In this document: piece after piece, positions 38,786 to 63,406 of the stretch
Position numbering within the stretch: position 1 is the stretch's first letter
Layout of the letters: every line of letters begins with the position of its first letter
DNA from: Candidatus Rokuibacteriota bacterium
Lineage (GTDB): Bacteria > Methylomirabilota > Methylomirabilia > Rokubacteriales > CSP1-6
Assembly (NCBI GenBank): GCA_003220345.1
Contig: QHSC01000091.1
Location: 1-64,000, forward strand
Direction: 5' to 3'
Length of the DNA stretch: 64,000 bases
Notes under the pieces: model-generated
Databases searched by the model: none
What the model was told of the DNA's origin: nothing
The model's input: only the letters and a program-made list of their open reading frames with translations
Translations under genes and position numbers: made by a program

Positions 38786-38920
38786 TGCCTCCTCCTTCCG
38801 TAACCTTCGTCCGTAGCCTTCTGTCCCGGCGCCCCTGCTGGGCGACTCGAACCGTCGTGGGCACGTCGCGTATCACTTAACATCCGCAAGATTCGACGGT
38901 CAAGCCGAATCCTCGATTCG

Positions 38921-39135
38921 GTCCTGGGTCAAGTTGCGAGCCAGATCTACTCAGCCCTCGCCTCGGGGCTCCGCCCTCAGCTCGAACCACCACGCCCGAG
39001 GGAGCCTGCAATGCGAGGCGTACCTGTATGTACGTTGAGCGTTTGCAGGCGACCGAGAACGTGGCTCTTCGAGCCGAACGGCCCTGCCGTGAGGCGAGAG
39101 CTGAGTTGATCTGGCGAAGCAAATTGGCCCAGTAC
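38921..39135. repeat. long imperfect palindrome (MITE-like or hairpin RNA candidate)
   Basis: 38941..38964 CCAGATCTACTCAGCCCTCGCCTC vs reverse complement of 39091..39114 CCAGATCAACTCAGCTCTCGCCTC (22/24); pairing extends outward and inward to CGTAC-CTGTAT-GTACG. Confidence 0.75.
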
Positions 39136-39179
39136 CCGCCGTTCGCGGCTCGCGGAGCCCTGTGCTATGGTCTCCCCCC

Positions 39180-40511
39180 ATGCCGGAATCGACGACACAC
39201 GCGGTTGCCGTCGTGGGCGCGGGCCCGGCGGGACTCTTTGCGACCCGCGCGCTCGCCGCGGCGGGATGCCGAGTTCTCCTCCTCAATCGTGACATCAAGC
39301 CGGGCGGGCTCGCCGAGTACGGGATCTTCCTCAACAAGTACAAGATGAAGGGCGGCCTCCGGAGGCAGTTCAGCAAGATCCTCACCGACCCGCGCGTCAC
39401 CTATCTCGGCCACGTGGCGGTGGGCGAGAGCGGGCCCCTGAGCGTTCCCGCCCTCCGCGCGGCGGGCTTCGACGCCGTGGTCTTCGCCATCGGAGCCCAG
39501 GGCACCAAGTACCTCGGCATCGAAGGGGAGCGGCTCCCAGGCGTGTACCACGCCAAGGACCTCGTCTATCACTACAACCGCCTTCCGCCATTCTCGGAGC
39601 GTCACTTCCCCATGGGTCGTCGGGTGGCCATCGTGGGCGTGGGCAATGTCATGGTGGACATCGCCAACTACTGCGCTCATTTCTGCGAGTGCGAGGAGAT
39701 CATCGCGGTGGCGCGGCGGGGCCCGCACGAGAAGGCGTACGATGACCGCGAGTTCGAGGACGTGGAGGACGCCTTCGACCGCGACGCGTACCGGCGGGAG
39801 GTCGAGCGCATTCGCCCGCGCCTGGAGGCGGCCGGGCAGAGCGCGGACGAGCTTCTGAAAGCCCTCGCCGCTCGGCCGGAAGCGGAGGACCGCTGTCGGG
39901 CTCGCCTGACCTTTCGCTTCCTCGCCTCCCCGCAGCGCGTGATCACCGAAGGCGGGCGCGTCGTCGGCCTCGAGATCGAGGAGACGCGGCTCGCGCGCAA
40001 GGGCGAGCGGATCAGCGCGGTCGGGACGGGCGAGATCTCGCGCATCCCGTGCGACACGGTGGTCTTCGCCGTGGGCGACCGCGTGGACGAGAGCGTGGGA
40101 CTGCCGTACCGGGAAGGGCTGTACGTGACGGCGCCCGGGGCGGAGCAGGACCCGGCCGCGGCCTATCAGGTCTGGGATCCCGCCCAGGGTCAGCCCCTCG
40201 CCGACGTCTTCGTGGTCGGCTGGGCGCGGCGGGCCAGCGACGGCGTGGTCGGGCGGGCGCGCCTCGACGCCGAGACGGGGATCAAGCACATCTTGAAGAT
40301 CCTCGGGTCCCGGCCCACGCGCGCGCCCGCGGAGGCCGAGCGGCCCGTGACGAAGATCATGCACGAGCTCGGCAAGGCGGGCGCCCGGCCCGTGACGTAT
40401 GAGGAGGTCCTGCGCATCGAAGCCGCAGAGCGCGAGCGCGCCCGCCGCGACGGGGTGGAGGAATTCAAGTTCGCCAGCGACGAGGACATGCTGGCCCTTC
40501 TCTCGAGCTAA
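39180..40511 (+). CDS. FAD-dependent pyridine nucleotide-disulfide-type oxidoreductase (ferredoxin-NADP reductase-like)
   Basis: VAVVGAGPAGLFATRALAAAG; VAIVGVGNVMVDIANY. Confidence 0.85.
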   Translation: MPESTTHAVAVVGAGPAGLFATRALAAAGCRVLLLNRDIKPGGLAEYGIFLNKYKMKGGLRRQFSKILTDPRVTYLGHVAVGESGPLSVPALRAAGFDAVVFAIGAQGTKYLGIEGERLPGVYHAKDLVYHYNRLPPFSERHFPMGRRVAIVGVGNVMVDIANYCAHFCECEEIIAVARRGPHEKAYDDREFEDVEDAFDRDAYRREVERIRPRLEAAGQSADELLKALAARPEAEDRCRARLTFRFLASPQRVITEGGRVVGLEIEETRLARKGERISAVGTGEISRIPCDTVVFAVGDRVDESVGLPYREGLYVTAPGAEQDPAAAYQVWDPAQGQPLADVFVVGWARRASDGVVGRARLDAETGIKHILKILGSRPTRAPAEAERPVTKIMHELGKAGARPVTYEEVLRIEAAERERARRDGVEEFKFASDEDMLALLSS

Positions 40512-42373: not shown

Positions 42374-45300
42374 CTAACACTCGTTGAAGCCGCAGGACAG
42401 ACACTTCTTGCACCCTTCCTCGTAGACGAGGGTCGCCTGTCCGCACTCCTTGCAGAGATCGCCGACCCTGCGGCGTCCCCCTTCGGGCGCCTTCGCGGCC
42501 TCCGGGGCGGGGCCACGGCCGATGCCGATGTGCTCCCCCAGCGTGCGGGCGAGTGCGTCCGGCAGCGAGAGCACCTTGGCCGCGCCGAAGCCCGTGGGCT
42601 GGCCGCCGCCGATCCATGCGAGCTGACTGATGACCTCCTCGAGCCGCCGTCGGGGAGACAGCGGCGAGGGCAGGCGGAGCACGAGCGAGATGAGGCGCCC
42701 GAGGGCCTCGGCCACCGCCATCGTGTCCGAGCCCGCCTTGCCGACCTGGACGAAGACCTCGAAGGGGTCGCCGCCCGGCGTCTCGTTGACGGTGACGAAG
42801 GCCGTGCCGATGGGCGTCTCCATGCGGTAGGTGGCGCCCGCGAGGCTGTGCGGACGGGGCCTGACCACGCGATCATCGAGCGCGTCCGTCGCCTCCGGCG
42901 CCCCCGCCGCGTCGCCGCCCACGCCCACGTTGAGCACCTGACCTCCCTTGCAGCCGTCGCGAAACACGGTGATGCCGAGACAGCCCTCGCGCCAGGCCAG
43001 AAGATACGCGTCCGCCACGTCCTGTCCCGTCGCGTCGGCGGGCAGGTTGATGGTCTTTGACACGCCGTTGTCGGTATGTCTCTGGAAGGCGGCCTGGTGG
43101 CGCACATGCCAGCTCCAGTGAATCTCGTGCGCGGTCTTGAAGACGGCGCGCGCTGCCTCCGGGACTCCGGGGATGCCCGCGAGGGTGCCGCGGCGGGCCA
43201 CCTCACCCATGAGGGCGTCGGAGTAGAACCCTCGCTGCCGCCCGAAGCGCTCGAAGCTCTGGCTGACGAAAGGCAGGACGCGCTCGCCGTCCACGCCCTT
43301 GACCCTGTGCTCGAAGGCCAGCGCGAAGACCGGCTCGATGCCCGAGGAGCAGCCGGCGATCATGGAAATGGTGCCCGTGGGCGCGATAGTGGTCACGGTG
43401 GAGTTCCGGAGCGCGCGCCCGCGCTCGTAGATGGACCGCTCGTAGTTCGGGAAGGGCCCGCGCTCCTCGGCAAGCCGGGCCGACTGGTCGTGGCCGATGT
43501 CCTGGATGAAGGCCATGAGGCGCCCGGCCAGCGCGAGCGCCTCCTCGCTGTCGTACGGGATGTCGAGGGCAAAGAGGAGGTCGGCCCAGCCCATGACGCC
43601 CAGCCCGATGCGGCGGTTCGCCTTGACCATGGCATCGATCGCGGCCAGCGGATACGGATTGACCTCGATCACGTCGTCGAGGAAGCGCACGGCGAGGCGG
43701 ACCACACGCTCGAGCTCGTCCCAGTCCAGGCTCCACAGTCCGTCCTGCTCTCGAGCGAAGCGGGCGACATTGAGCGAGCCCAGATTGCACGCCTCGTTGG
43801 GCAACAGAGGCTGCTCACCGCACTGGTGAACCACGAGGCCATTGGCGATCATCGAGTGGCTTTGCGGCTCGGTCAGATCGTAGACGCGGCGGACGCCCGC
43901 CGGCTCGACGCTGACCACGGGATCCGAGAAACGCTGCGCGTAGAAGCCGCCATAGCGGATACGGCCGAGGCGTTCCTGTTTGGCTCCGAGGAAGCCGACG
44001 GTCCGTCGAAAGACCTCGCGAGACTTGCCGAAGATCCCGAGCTCGAAGAGCACACCATCCGATCTGTAGGCTCGCGGGGCGCCTCGGACAGCTCGATAGG
44101 CGAAGATGCAGTCGCGGGGTGCTCGAGACCGGTCGAAGATGCGACTCTTGATGCCGAGGTTCAACAGGAGAATCTGGACACCCCGGAGCAATTCGGCGCT
44201 CTTGGATGTCAGCGCGATCCACGCGCTGTTGGCTTTCGGATTGTCCCGGACCGTTCCGTCCGCCGTGAAGAGCGCCTGGAGAAATCCGATCACGGCCTCC
44301 GGGGGCGCCCCGAAGATAGACGCCGGCACGACCTTGTCCGCGGCGCGGGCGGGGCGGACTCCCAGGCGAACGAAGAAATCGACGAGGAACTTGCCGTGGT
44401 AGGACACGTGCCAGACGCCCCGGGGCCGCTCGACGGCGCGCGTCGGATGTCCGTACCATTCGTCGACCGCGCCATGGATCCGCTCACGCATCGTCGCATC
44501 CCCGGGCCCGAAGCTGAATCCCACCCGGCAGTTGCGATCGCCCGCTCTGAGCCAGCCGTCACCGATCAGCCAGCCCAGGACGAAACCCAGCTCCTGTGTC
44601 CAGATGGATGGCAATGCGTGGCGGTACGACCGTCCATTCGCGCCCTTGAACTCGGTGGCAACGTCGAAGGGAAGCCGTCGATCGGAGGCAAAGGCGCCCG
44701 GATCGCTCTGGATCCACACTCGATGCCCGCCCGACTTCAGCTCGCCCGCCGCCATCCACCCGCGATCGGTCATGACGCGATGGTCCGGCGTGCACACGAG
44801 CTCGAAGCCGGCCCGGGTCCGGAGCCGCACGGTCTCCCGCTCTCCGGAGCAGATCGCCTGGCTTATGGGCAGACATCCGTTGTCGTACGAGACAAGGGGC
44901 ACGTTGTGCGTGCCTTCCCAGACCATGAACCGCGCGGGAAGGAGCCGGCCGTCGATCTTGACGGCCACCCCGCCCGCAGCATGGCGCTCGACGAGCTCGT
45001 CCATGCGCATCAGGCCCCGGTCCGTGGCCACGAGCGCCTCGCCGGTGAGGCATGGGTTCGTCGCTTCGACGAGGCCCACCGCGGGAGTGGGATTGGCGGG
45101 GCTCGCGTTGATGCGGTCGATGAAGACGAGGCCGGGATCGCCCGTACGCCACGCCGCGCGCACGATGCGATCGAAGACCTCCTGCGCCGACAGTCGCGCC
45201 ACCGCCATGCCCGTCCGCGGGTTGATGAGGTCGTAGTCCCCGCCCGACTCGAGGGCGGCCATGAAAGAATCGGTGACGGCGACCGAGATGTTGAAGTTGG

Positions 45301-45898
45301 TCATGGCGCCGTCGAGCTTGCACTCGACGAACTCCAGGATGTCCGGATGGTCGACGCGCAGCACGCCCATGTTGGCGCCGCGGCGGGTGCCCCCCTGCTT
45401 CACCGCCTCCGTCGCGCTGTTGAAGACTTTGAGAAAGGACACGGGGCCCGAGGCCCGGCCGCCCGTCGAGCGGACGAAGTCGTTCTTCGGCCGGAGACGC
45501 GAGAACGCGAAGCCCGTGCCCCCGCCCGACTGGTGGATGATGGCCGCGGCCTTGACGGAGTCGAAGATCTCCTCCATCGAGTCGCCCACGGGGAGGACGT
45601 AGCAGGCGGAGTACTGGAGCTGGTTGTCCTTGCCCGCGTTCATCAGCGTGGGCGAGTTGGGCAGGAACTGCCCCTCGACCATCATGTCGTAGAAGGCGGT
45701 GGCGATCTCCTGGGAGGCGGCCGGGCTCCGACCGAAGCGCGCCTCGGCGTCGGCGATGGTGCGCGCCACACGCCAGCACATCTCCTCCGGGGTCTCGATG
45801 ACCTTCCCCTCCCGGCGGGAGAGGTAGCGCTCGGCCAGCACGCGCAGCGCGGGCTCTGACCAGCGCCCCATCTTGGACGGTCTCGTCTGAGCGTTCAT
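42374..45898 (-). CDS. nrdJ: adenosylcobalamin-dependent ribonucleotide reductase with in-frame intein
   Basis: NSPTLMNAGKDNQLQYSACYVLPVGDSMEEIFDSVKAAAIIHQSGGGTGFAFSRLRP; NP^CGEQPLLPNEACNLGSLN; C-terminal Cys-rich tail. Confidence 0.97.
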   Translation of the reverse strand: MNAQTRPSKMGRWSEPALRVLAERYLSRREGKVIETPEEMCWRVARTIADAEARFGRSPAASQEIATAFYDMMVEGQFLPNSPTLMNAGKDNQLQYSACYVLPVGDSMEEIFDSVKAAAIIHQSGGGTGFAFSRLRPKNDFVRSTGGRASGPVSFLKVFNSATEAVKQGGTRRGANMGVLRVDHPDILEFVECKLDGAMTNFNISVAVTDSFMAALESGGDYDLINPRTGMAVARLSAQEVFDRIVRAAWRTGDPGLVFIDRINASPANPTPAVGLVEATNPCLTGEALVATDRGLMRMDELVERHAAGGVAVKIDGRLLPARFMVWEGTHNVPLVSYDNGCLPISQAICSGERETVRLRTRAGFELVCTPDHRVMTDRGWMAAGELKSGGHRVWIQSDPGAFASDRRLPFDVATEFKGANGRSYRHALPSIWTQELGFVLGWLIGDGWLRAGDRNCRVGFSFGPGDATMRERIHGAVDEWYGHPTRAVERPRGVWHVSYHGKFLVDFFVRLGVRPARAADKVVPASIFGAPPEAVIGFLQALFTADGTVRDNPKANSAWIALTSKSAELLRGVQILLLNLGIKSRIFDRSRAPRDCIFAYRAVRGAPRAYRSDGVLFELGIFGKSREVFRRTVGFLGAKQERLGRIRYGGFYAQRFSDPVVSVEPAGVRRVYDLTEPQSHSMIANGLVVHQCGEQPLLPNEACNLGSLNVARFAREQDGLWSLDWDELERVVRLAVRFLDDVIEVNPYPLAAIDAMVKANRRIGLGVMGWADLLFALDIPYDSEEALALAGRLMAFIQDIGHDQSARLAEERGPFPNYERSIYERGRALRNSTVTTIAPTGTISMIAGCSSGIEPVFALAFEHRVKGVDGERVLPFVSQSFERFGRQRGFYSDALMGEVARRGTLAGIPGVPEAARAVFKTAHEIHWSWHVRHQAAFQRHTDNGVSKTINLPADATGQDVADAYLLAWREGCLGITVFRDGCKGGQVLNVGVGGDAAGAPEATDALDDRVVRPRPHSLAGATYRMETPIGTAFVTVNETPGGDPFEVFVQVGKAGSDTMAVAEALGRLISLVLRLPSPLSPRRRLEEVISQLAWIGGGQPTGFGAAKVLSLPDALARTLGEHIGIGRGPAPEAAKAPEGGRRRVGDLCKECGQATLVYEEGCKKCLSCGFNEC
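43823..45052 (-). other. 410-aa LAGLIDADG intein in nrdJ
   Basis: Starts CLTGEALVATDRG (block A), TPDHRVMT (block B), LGWLIGDGWL and LQALFTADGTV dodecapeptides, ends VYDLTEPQSHSMIANGLVVHQ followed by Cys+1 (CGEQ). Confidence 0.95.
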
Positions 45899-45930
45899 GA
45901 ACCTCATCTTAACATAGGAGAATCGCGGGC

Positions 45931-45958
45931 TTGACTCTTTGGCCGCCATCCATAGAAT
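45931..45958 (+). promoter_or_regulatory. sigma70-type promoter of the efflux operon
   Basis: TTGACT (45931..45936), 16-nt spacer, TAGAAT (45953..45958). Confidence 0.65.
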
Positions 45959-61994: not shown

Positions 61995-62897
61995 GTGCCC
62001 GGTCCGGGTCAAACCGGCGCCTACGCCGCCCTCGCGCTGATCGCCGCCCTCTGGGGCTCCTATCCCGCCTTCGCCAAGCTCGCGCTGGTCGCCTTTCCCC
62101 CGCTCGTCCTCGTGGCGCTTCGCTGTAGCATCGCCTCGATATTTCTCGGCGCCCTGCTCGCCCGGCGCGGATGGAGCGAGTTCAACGCCCTCCGCCTCCG
62201 TGACCTCGGCCCCTTGGCCTTCCTGGGATTCGCGGGCATCTTCGTCTCGACGGGCGCGACCTATCTGGCCCTCGCCTTCACCACGGCGTCGAACGCGGTG
62301 CTGCTCCAGCCCGTGACGCCGGTGATGGTCGCCATCGGCGCCCGGCTCTATCTCAAGGAGCGGCTCACCCGGATACAGTGGGCGGGCGTCGCCTGCTCGG
62401 CGGCCGGGGTCGTTCTCATCATCAGCAAGGGGAGCTGGCGGGCCGTCACCCATCTCGATCTCCGGCCCGGCGATTTCATCCTGCTCGCGGGGCAGATCGG
62501 ATGGACCGTCTATACCGTCTACGGTCAGCGTGTGCTCACCCGGCACTCGCCCGCTGTGGCGACCACGGCGGCCTACATCCTCGGCTCCGTCATGCTGCTG
62601 CCCCTGCCCCTCCTCACGGCGGACTTCTTTCCGCGGCCGGATCTCGCCTCGCCCGTGGCGTGGGCCGTGGTCGGCTATCAGGCCATTCTCGGCTCGGTGG
62701 CGCACGTGTGGTGGTACGAGGCGGTGCGCGCGCTGGGGCCGAGCCGCTCGGCCGTCTTCCTGAATCTCCAGCCCGTGGTCGGCGTGCTGCTCGCCTGGAT
62801 CATGCTCGGGGAGAGCATCGGAGGGCTGGCGCTCGTGGGCGGCGCCGCCATTCTCACCGGGGTCGCCTTGACAAGCCGACGGACGGCAGGCCGCTGA
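61995..62897 (+). CDS. EamA/DMT family transporter
   Basis: Ten-TM-like; ALIAALWGSYPAFAKLAL; NAVLLQPVTPVMVAIGARLYLKERLTRIQWAGV. Confidence 0.92.
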   Translation: MPGPGQTGAYAALALIAALWGSYPAFAKLALVAFPPLVLVALRCSIASIFLGALLARRGWSEFNALRLRDLGPLAFLGFAGIFVSTGATYLALAFTTASNAVLLQPVTPVMVAIGARLYLKERLTRIQWAGVACSAAGVVLIISKGSWRAVTHLDLRPGDFILLAGQIGWTVYTVYGQRVLTRHSPAVATTAAYILGSVMLLPLPLLTADFFPRPDLASPVAWAVVGYQAILGSVAHVWWYEAVRALGPSRSAVFLNLQPVVGVLLAWIMLGESIGGLALVGGAAILTGVALTSRRTAGR

Positions 62898-62931
62898 AAA
62901 AGGCCCATCTGGACCTTTTTCAGCGGCCTGC
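62886..62931. terminator. bidirectional terminator-like inverted repeat
   Basis: GCAGGCCGCTGAAAAAGG (62886..62903) / CCTTTTTCAGCGGCCTGC (62914..62931): 18-bp perfect arms, 10-nt loop, between convergent genes. Confidence 0.8.
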
Positions 62932-62938
62932 GGTGCTT

Positions 62939-63406
62939 CTACGGAAGCTTCTGGAGCTCGGCGAGGATCTTGTCGGGTTCCGGCAGCTCGCCCTTGCCAT
63001 AGCGCTCGGCGAAGACGACCTTGCCCTGCTTGTCGACGATGAAGGTGGCGCGCACGTTGGCGTTCCAGTCCGGCCAGTAGACGCCGTAGTCCTTGCTGAC
63101 CGTCCGGTGCACGTCCGAGAGGAGCGGATAGTTGGAGATGCCGACCGACTTCGCCCAGTTCTCATGGCTGAATGGGCTGTCCGTGCTAATACCCAGCACC
63201 TGGGCATTGACCGCCTCGAAGTCCTTGGCGCGACGATCGAAGGCGGGCATGCACTTGGATCAGCCGGGCGTCCAGTCCAGCGGGTAGAACAGGAGCACCA
63301 CCCTCTTGCCCTTGAAGTCCTTCAGGCTGACCTCCTTGAGCCCGATGGTCTTCATGGTGAACTCGGGCGCGGTATCCCCCACCCCGAGCGTCTTGTTGTC
63401 ACTCAT
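62939..63406 (-). CDS. peroxiredoxin (AhpC/TSA), probable selenoprotein with in-frame UGA at 63260..63262
   Basis: MSDNKTLGVGDTAPEFTMKTIGLKEVSLKDFKGKRVVLLFYPLDWTPG-[TGA]-SKCMPAFDRRAKDFEAVNAQVLGISTDSPFSHENWAKSVGISNYPLLSDVHRTVSKDYGVYWPDWNANVRATFIVDKQGKVVFAERYGKGELPEPDKILAELQKLP*. Confidence 0.85.
63211..63246 (-). promoter_or_regulatory. candidate bacterial SECIS hairpin
   Basis: CCGCCU(U)CGA-UC-GUC-[GCGCCAAG]-GAC-U-UCGAGGCGG; apical loop begins with G, 28 nt after UGA. Confidence 0.55.

Follow-up and report, generated by a model that had tools for sequence, protein, structure and literature searches.

The ERIC or IRU (RU-1) repeats of enterobacteria are imperfect palindromes of ~127 bp, intergenic, dispersed and capable of forming a strong hairpin (PMC3049150, PMC2229807). 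The BOX repeats of Streptococcus are composites in which the number of modules varies between orthologous sites and each module folds largely independently (PMC3049150). In Neisseria, the Correia or NEMIS repeats come in two size classes that differ by an internal block of ~50 bp (PMC2229807). REPINs are miniature hairpins believed to travel in folded, single-stranded form (PMC3116915), and REP sequences are palindromes of 20–40 bp tagged at one end by GTAG or CGTC (PMC3733652).

Our locus lies in a window of 64,000 nucleotides, the whole stretch of DNA that we analysed (positions 1 to 64,000 of contig QHSC01000091.1, assembly GCA_003220345.1, Candidatus Rokuibacteriota bacterium). We interpret positions 38920–39136 as a recently inserted copy of a miniature mobile element, non-autonomous and moved as a strand-specific hairpin, and put the probability of this reading at about 0.6. 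Its behaviour is reminiscent of ERIC, with 127-bp palindromes, of BOX, with variable modules, and of REPINs, with movement as a folded single strand. Like ERIC, the element is intergenic (none of 69 copies lies inside a gene), dispersed and forms a strong hairpin, with a module-free class of 127 nt counting its 4-nt ends; it differs in belonging to another phylum, in its ladder of GA/GA loops, in carrying 45-nt modules at three sites and in showing no target duplication, although the two were compared by description only. As in BOX, module number varies between orthologous sites, but the defining arrangement of BOX, a tandem boxB array flanked by boxA and boxC, is absent: the element's module, M, occupies either arm or the apical loop, in sense or antisense, and occurs solo elsewhere as well. 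Size classes set by an internal block recall Correia/NEMIS, but the element has up to three modules and no target duplication was seen; it is also GC-rich and phylum-wide. The element, like REPINs, may have moved as a folded single-strand hairpin, but a REPIN comprises two short REPs linked to a RAYT, whereas the element is a single long hairpin whose presence does not correlate with RAYTs; the cognate RAYT that marks REPINs and REPs was found neither in the genome nor beside the element. From REPs it departs in both size and tag, being a hairpin of 127 nt or longer whose ends read GG(T/C)ACTGGG.

A preliminary description had placed a palindrome at 38921–39135, and folding bears it out. The RNA fold of 38880–39160 reaches −162.7 kcal/mol, whereas shuffles average −106.3 (sd 5.3); this corresponds to z = −10.7 on the plus strand, with none of 200 dinucleotide shuffles equally good; the minus strand gives z = −9.8. 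The arm pairings it listed are there in the sequence, and a gap-free repeat search did not return the arms because they contain bulges. Its extent was approximately right: comparison of copies puts the true ends one base further out on each side, at 38920 (GGTC, then CTGGG) and 39136 (CCCAG, then TACC). The perfect hairpin said to abut the left side, CCGAATC-CTC-GATTCGG, also exists, at 38905–38921 rather than 38906–38922. Its last GG is the element's first two bases, and its perfect form is partly an accident of the junction, since an element-free relative reads CGAATCTTCGATTCA there. No ORF explains the palindrome, as had been said; those crossing it are mechanical, and the neighbouring genes begin outside. 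Our core covariance model, R1, matches the window copy with 84 bits (E = 1.2e-19), and the copy carries two modules M, one left and one right (Table 1).

Table 1. The window copy, its parts, and the genes and probable promoters on either side.
Feature	Positions	Strand	Remarks
Cytochrome c-type gene, 138 aa	38369–38785	−	Left neighbour, outside the element
GGTCAA (TTGACC on minus), probable −35 of the cytochrome c gene	38899–38904	−	Left of the insertion; read from sequence, conserved in aligned relatives
Complete element	38920–39136	+	209-nt class plus 4 nt of paired end per side; between two divergent promoters (probable); copies in register, element-free orthologous site in G003
Left terminal arm GGTCCTGGGTCAAGTTGCGAGCCAGA	38920–38945	+	In most of 69 copies the bases beyond CTGGG co-vary with those of the right end
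Left hairpin module M, antisense	38946–38994	−	Core of M 38951–38986 (minus); missing from the 119-nt class
Conserved core hairpin CCCGAGGG...GAGAACG, three GA/GA internal loops	38995–39061	+	Model R1 match and covariation
Apical motif GCGAGGCGTAC-loop-GTACGTTGAGCG	39013–39041	+	Common to the second palindromic family
Right hairpin module M, sense	39062–39107	+	Core of M 39068–39104
Right terminal arm GATCTGGCGAAGCAAATTGGCCCAGTACC	39108–39136	+	End comparison of copies
TGTGC-TATGGT, probable extended −10 of the FAD oxidoreductase gene	39167–39172	+	Right of the insertion; read from sequence, similar in aligned relatives
FAD-dependent oxidoreductase, 443 aa from ATG (39180)	39180–40511	+	Right neighbour, outside the element

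The window copy is one of many. BLAST of the region against its own genome gave ~91 matches, several of them near full length at 73–91% identity, and we read 69 full-length copies with their flanks in this genome and four species of its genus. Their lengths cluster at ~119, 164, 209 and 254 nt, with some deletion and duplication variants falling outside, and these classes are a core hairpin plus 0, 1, 2 or 3 modules M of ~45 nt. Three places can take a module: the left arm, where it is antisense, and the apical loop and right arm, where it is sense. The units are diverse, with 122 distinct modules and 89 distinct apical sequences, yet across the 122 the positions of the apical stem are complementary in 302 of 356 cases, against 213 when partners are shuffled. 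Apparently repeated modules occur only in L189, L198 and L200. The whole element is short and non-coding, with conserved terminal inverted repeats of 13–17 bp.

A second palindromic family, which has the same apical motif, GAGGCGTAC..GTACGTTGAG, also carries module M in its apical loop; elsewhere M is found by itself or nested within other copies of M. Five loci (L032, L043, L046, L062 and L073) belong to this second family (AGATGCGAGGCGGCGCCC...GCAGATGGGCCTTTTT), whose body is different, and in the first three of them M occupies the apical loop. At L030, L031, L035, L036, L038 and L039, M is nested in or adjoins another M, forming compound palindromes outside the core element, and at L033, L034, L037, L041, L045 and L047 a solo M is repeatedly joined to a further dispersed repeat, a palindrome of the form CCCTCTCCCC..GGGGAGAGGG. 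Next to the terminal repeat, in the left or right flank of L189, L199, L205, L206 and L020, lies an outer extension like GTGGGTCAGTTTGGGCGCTGG, perhaps a further module. The window itself holds, at 62878–62939, a 30-bp inverted repeat (CAGGCCGCTGAAAAAGGCCCA..TGGACCTTTTTCAGCGGCCTG, 87% complementary) that looks like an intrinsic terminator and resembles the outer ends of the second family.

How the element is constrained emerges from covariation among 20 core sequences drawn from several families of the class and compared over 17 stem pairs. Pairing is kept at 99.4%, and in eight of the 17 pairs both partners have changed. Covariation scores 0.379, compared with 0.132 ± 0.017 for shuffles and at most 0.067 for slid structures. 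On the plus strand these cores together have 44 G·T pairs and not a single A·C pair. Three 2x2 internal loops are GA/GA in 59 of 60 cases, while a fourth switches between GA/GA and two Watson–Crick pairs. The bases just outside CTGGG/CCCAG co-vary in most of the 69 copies (gta/tac, gca/tgc, gtc/gac), and the plus strand is the stabler of the two in 62 of the 69. The compensatory changes, the G·T pairs without A·C and the near-invariant GA/GA loops show constraint on the plus strand in its folded, single-stranded form, as one would expect of a molecule that is read as one strand. Template-switch correction of quasi-palindromes could account for part of the covariation, but it would also erase the invariant GA/GA mismatches. 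Since G·T and sheared GA pairs form in RNA and single-stranded DNA alike, the sequence does not separate the two.

That the element moves, or did so until recently, is seen at orthologous sites. The closest species, G003, whose FAD protein is 91% identical, has the same divergent region without the element: it reads ATTC-ACCTCCA-TTCGCGG where the window reads ATTC-[element]-CGCCGTTCGCGG. Insertion of the window copy is therefore lineage-specific, and cannot be old, because the closest species does not have it; comparison with the G003 site reveals no target-site duplication. G003 has its own copy one gene further on, between cytochrome c and a histidine kinase, where the window is empty. Two other copies also have counterparts in G003, one a clean element-free site (L019) and one a short scar (L017). 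When we probed with the joined flanks of ten other copies, nine turned out to have a close relative whose orthologous site lacks the full element. These sites are clean (L174, L193, L211), carry a different short filling, or hold a scar; the scars at L207 and L217 consist of the element's end, and some further sites are too diverged for judgement. Only a handful of target sites are truly clean, the rest being scars or diverged, and at the clean ones (window/L161, L019/L230, L174/L268, L193/L269 and L211) we found no target-site duplication. The orthologous pair L213/L215, with flanks 96% identical, shares a rare core variant, yet one copy is 209 nt with both modules and the other 119 nt with none. 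In two further orthologous comparisons, L203/L212 and L015/L206, the flanks correspond but the element between them points the other way. A reading of L012/L175 as gene conversion only is not secure, because the positions are ~30 nt apart and independent insertions into one gap could explain them. Copies within one genome are at most ~97% identical, so no transposition event has been observed directly.

The insertion of the window copy falls between the conserved TTGACC on the minus strand and the conserved TGTGCTAT on the plus, so both probable promoters, as we read them from sequence, are spared, and the local effect is probably just to shift the two putative promoters 217 bp apart. The preliminary description had also considered a structured regulatory region for this gene pair. 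A dedicated cytochrome c/FAD regulator is not supported, for the same pair of genes stands without the element in five relatives (G001, G002, G003, G004 and G006). The nearest named record to the FAD oxidoreductase is from a Candidatus Rokuibacteriota MAG, at 76% identity. Further along the window, the minus strand at 42374–45949 has a 1191-aa ribonucleotide reductase-like ORF whose translation contains an apparent intein-like stretch (ends NPCLTGEALVATDRG ... ANGLVVHQC).

Across the family, divergent gene pairs flank 32 of the 66 copies that could be classified, whereas 72 of 331 background gaps are of this kind (Fisher p = 2e-5; p = 5e-4 when measured against intergenic length), p values that are rough because the gene caller was a simple in-house one and a few copies are orthologous. 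Copies between tandem genes sit close behind the upstream stop: 16 of the 31 are within 6 nt of a stop codon, where uniform placement would give 3.0. We make no claim of stop-codon targeting, because avoidance of promoters and starts is enough: a null that keeps insertions 60 nt off start codons predicts 16.1. In five single- or low-copy genome loci (L286, L288, L289, L292 and L293) the element runs directly up to the TAG stop codon, the genes being unrelated to one another, and a flank of ~30 nt like TTGCTGTCAAACTTTTCTTGACG is conserved.

Three other explanations deserve a hearing. The first holds that the transcript is the selected molecule, in a structured RNA or RNA-level element such as a 3′ stabiliser, an attenuator or a retro-transposed RNA. 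A plus-strand fold with conserved G·U pairs and tandem GA loops is typical of structured RNA, half of the tandem copies are within 6 nt of a stop codon, and in those single- and low-copy genomes that we inspected, different genes have their TAG where the element ends. The proximity to stops, however, is equalled by the start-avoidance null. Orientation relative to transcription is random, with 13 tandem copies in the same direction as the genes and 18 opposite (13/31, p = 0.47), which argues against a cis-acting mRNA element, and nearly half of all copies lie between divergent genes and hence outside any mRNA. Rfam covariance models gave no match up to E = 1 or 0.5. We consider this explanation unlikely. 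For the long hairpin ncRNA first suggested, then, the hairpin stands, with one strand constrained as a folded single strand, but the expressed ncRNA is not borne out.

A second explanation is an ordinary MITE: an insertion sequence encoding a DDE transposase would have shrunk by deletion, and the remnant would be cross-mobilised by way of its terminal inverted repeats. Of the candidates originally put forward, an old MITE with long terminal inverted repeats came closest: the copies are small, ORF-free and dispersed, with matching terminal repeats and element-free orthologous sites. The duplications that were to accompany the copies did not appear, no autonomous parent was found, and the window insertion is not old. 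A search of five genomes, all fragmented MAGs, with the end-repeat pattern gave no pair spaced as in an insertion sequence; strand-specific GA/GA loops would be unexpected in ends read as double-stranded DNA. With neither target duplications nor an insertion sequence bearing these ends found, we think a DDE-type MITE improbable, even though an autonomous partner could be missing from the data because the genomes are fragmented. The third candidate, a REPIN- or REP-like element driven by a RAYT (Y1 HUH) transposase, is very improbable: a strand-specific, imperfect intergenic hairpin without duplication is what has been proposed for REPINs (PMC3116915), but Y1_Tnp is missing from the high-copy genomes G003, G031, G036 and G038 and occurs ten times in the element-free G054, and no element termini lie near the two RAYT loci inspected.

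The core covariance model matches 49 of 89 genomes sampled across the phylum that includes Rokubacteria, and 23 of 32 genera, with from 1 to at least 43 copies per positive genome. All these genomes are fragmented MAGs (the window's own assembly has 429 contigs and an estimated contamination of 7%), and copy numbers are lower bounds because dispersed repeats break assemblies. Single copies in another family of the class sit at different genes and so do not represent one fixed locus. Carriage by phage was considered and set aside, the one matching viral contig having the apical motif without the rest of the element. Our literature searches turned up no description of the element in these bacteria, and the family is apparently undescribed.

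How might a hairpin of this kind move? In the mobile-element reading that we prefer, the moving unit would be the plus strand, extruded as a hairpin from single-stranded DNA during replication or transcription or, less likely, as RNA. An enzyme acting in trans would read the ladder of GA loops and the paired ends, and would insert the strand into intergenic DNA without duplicating the target. We infer this step, since no transposase or other enzyme has been tied to the element; the mobilising enzyme is probably not a RAYT. Insertions would be tolerated only where coding sequence and promoters are spared, whether in a gap between divergent promoters, as for the window copy, or a few bases behind a stop codon. 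The modules M may be mobile hairpins in their own right, entering three permitted places of a host hairpin, and copies may later be lost by internal deletion, leaving short scars. More tentatively, and with considerable doubt, we suggest that structure, and not sequence, defines a class of mobile DNA that extends across the phylum. Its members would be strand-specific hairpins that bear a ladder of tandem GA/GA loops, can host smaller hairpins built in the same way, and enter new sites with no target duplication through an enzyme whose action on such elements has yet to be recognised.

Small palindromic repeats abound in bacteria, most of them without a settled mode of movement. This family offers a structural fingerprint, in its GA/GA ladder and covarying ends, a record of modular insertion at orthologous sites, and a phylum-wide spread; with these in hand, both the search for the enzyme and the choice between single-stranded DNA and RNA become testable. 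The family would also allow annotation pipelines to recognise a source of intergenic variation that recurs in Rokubacteria and their relatives.
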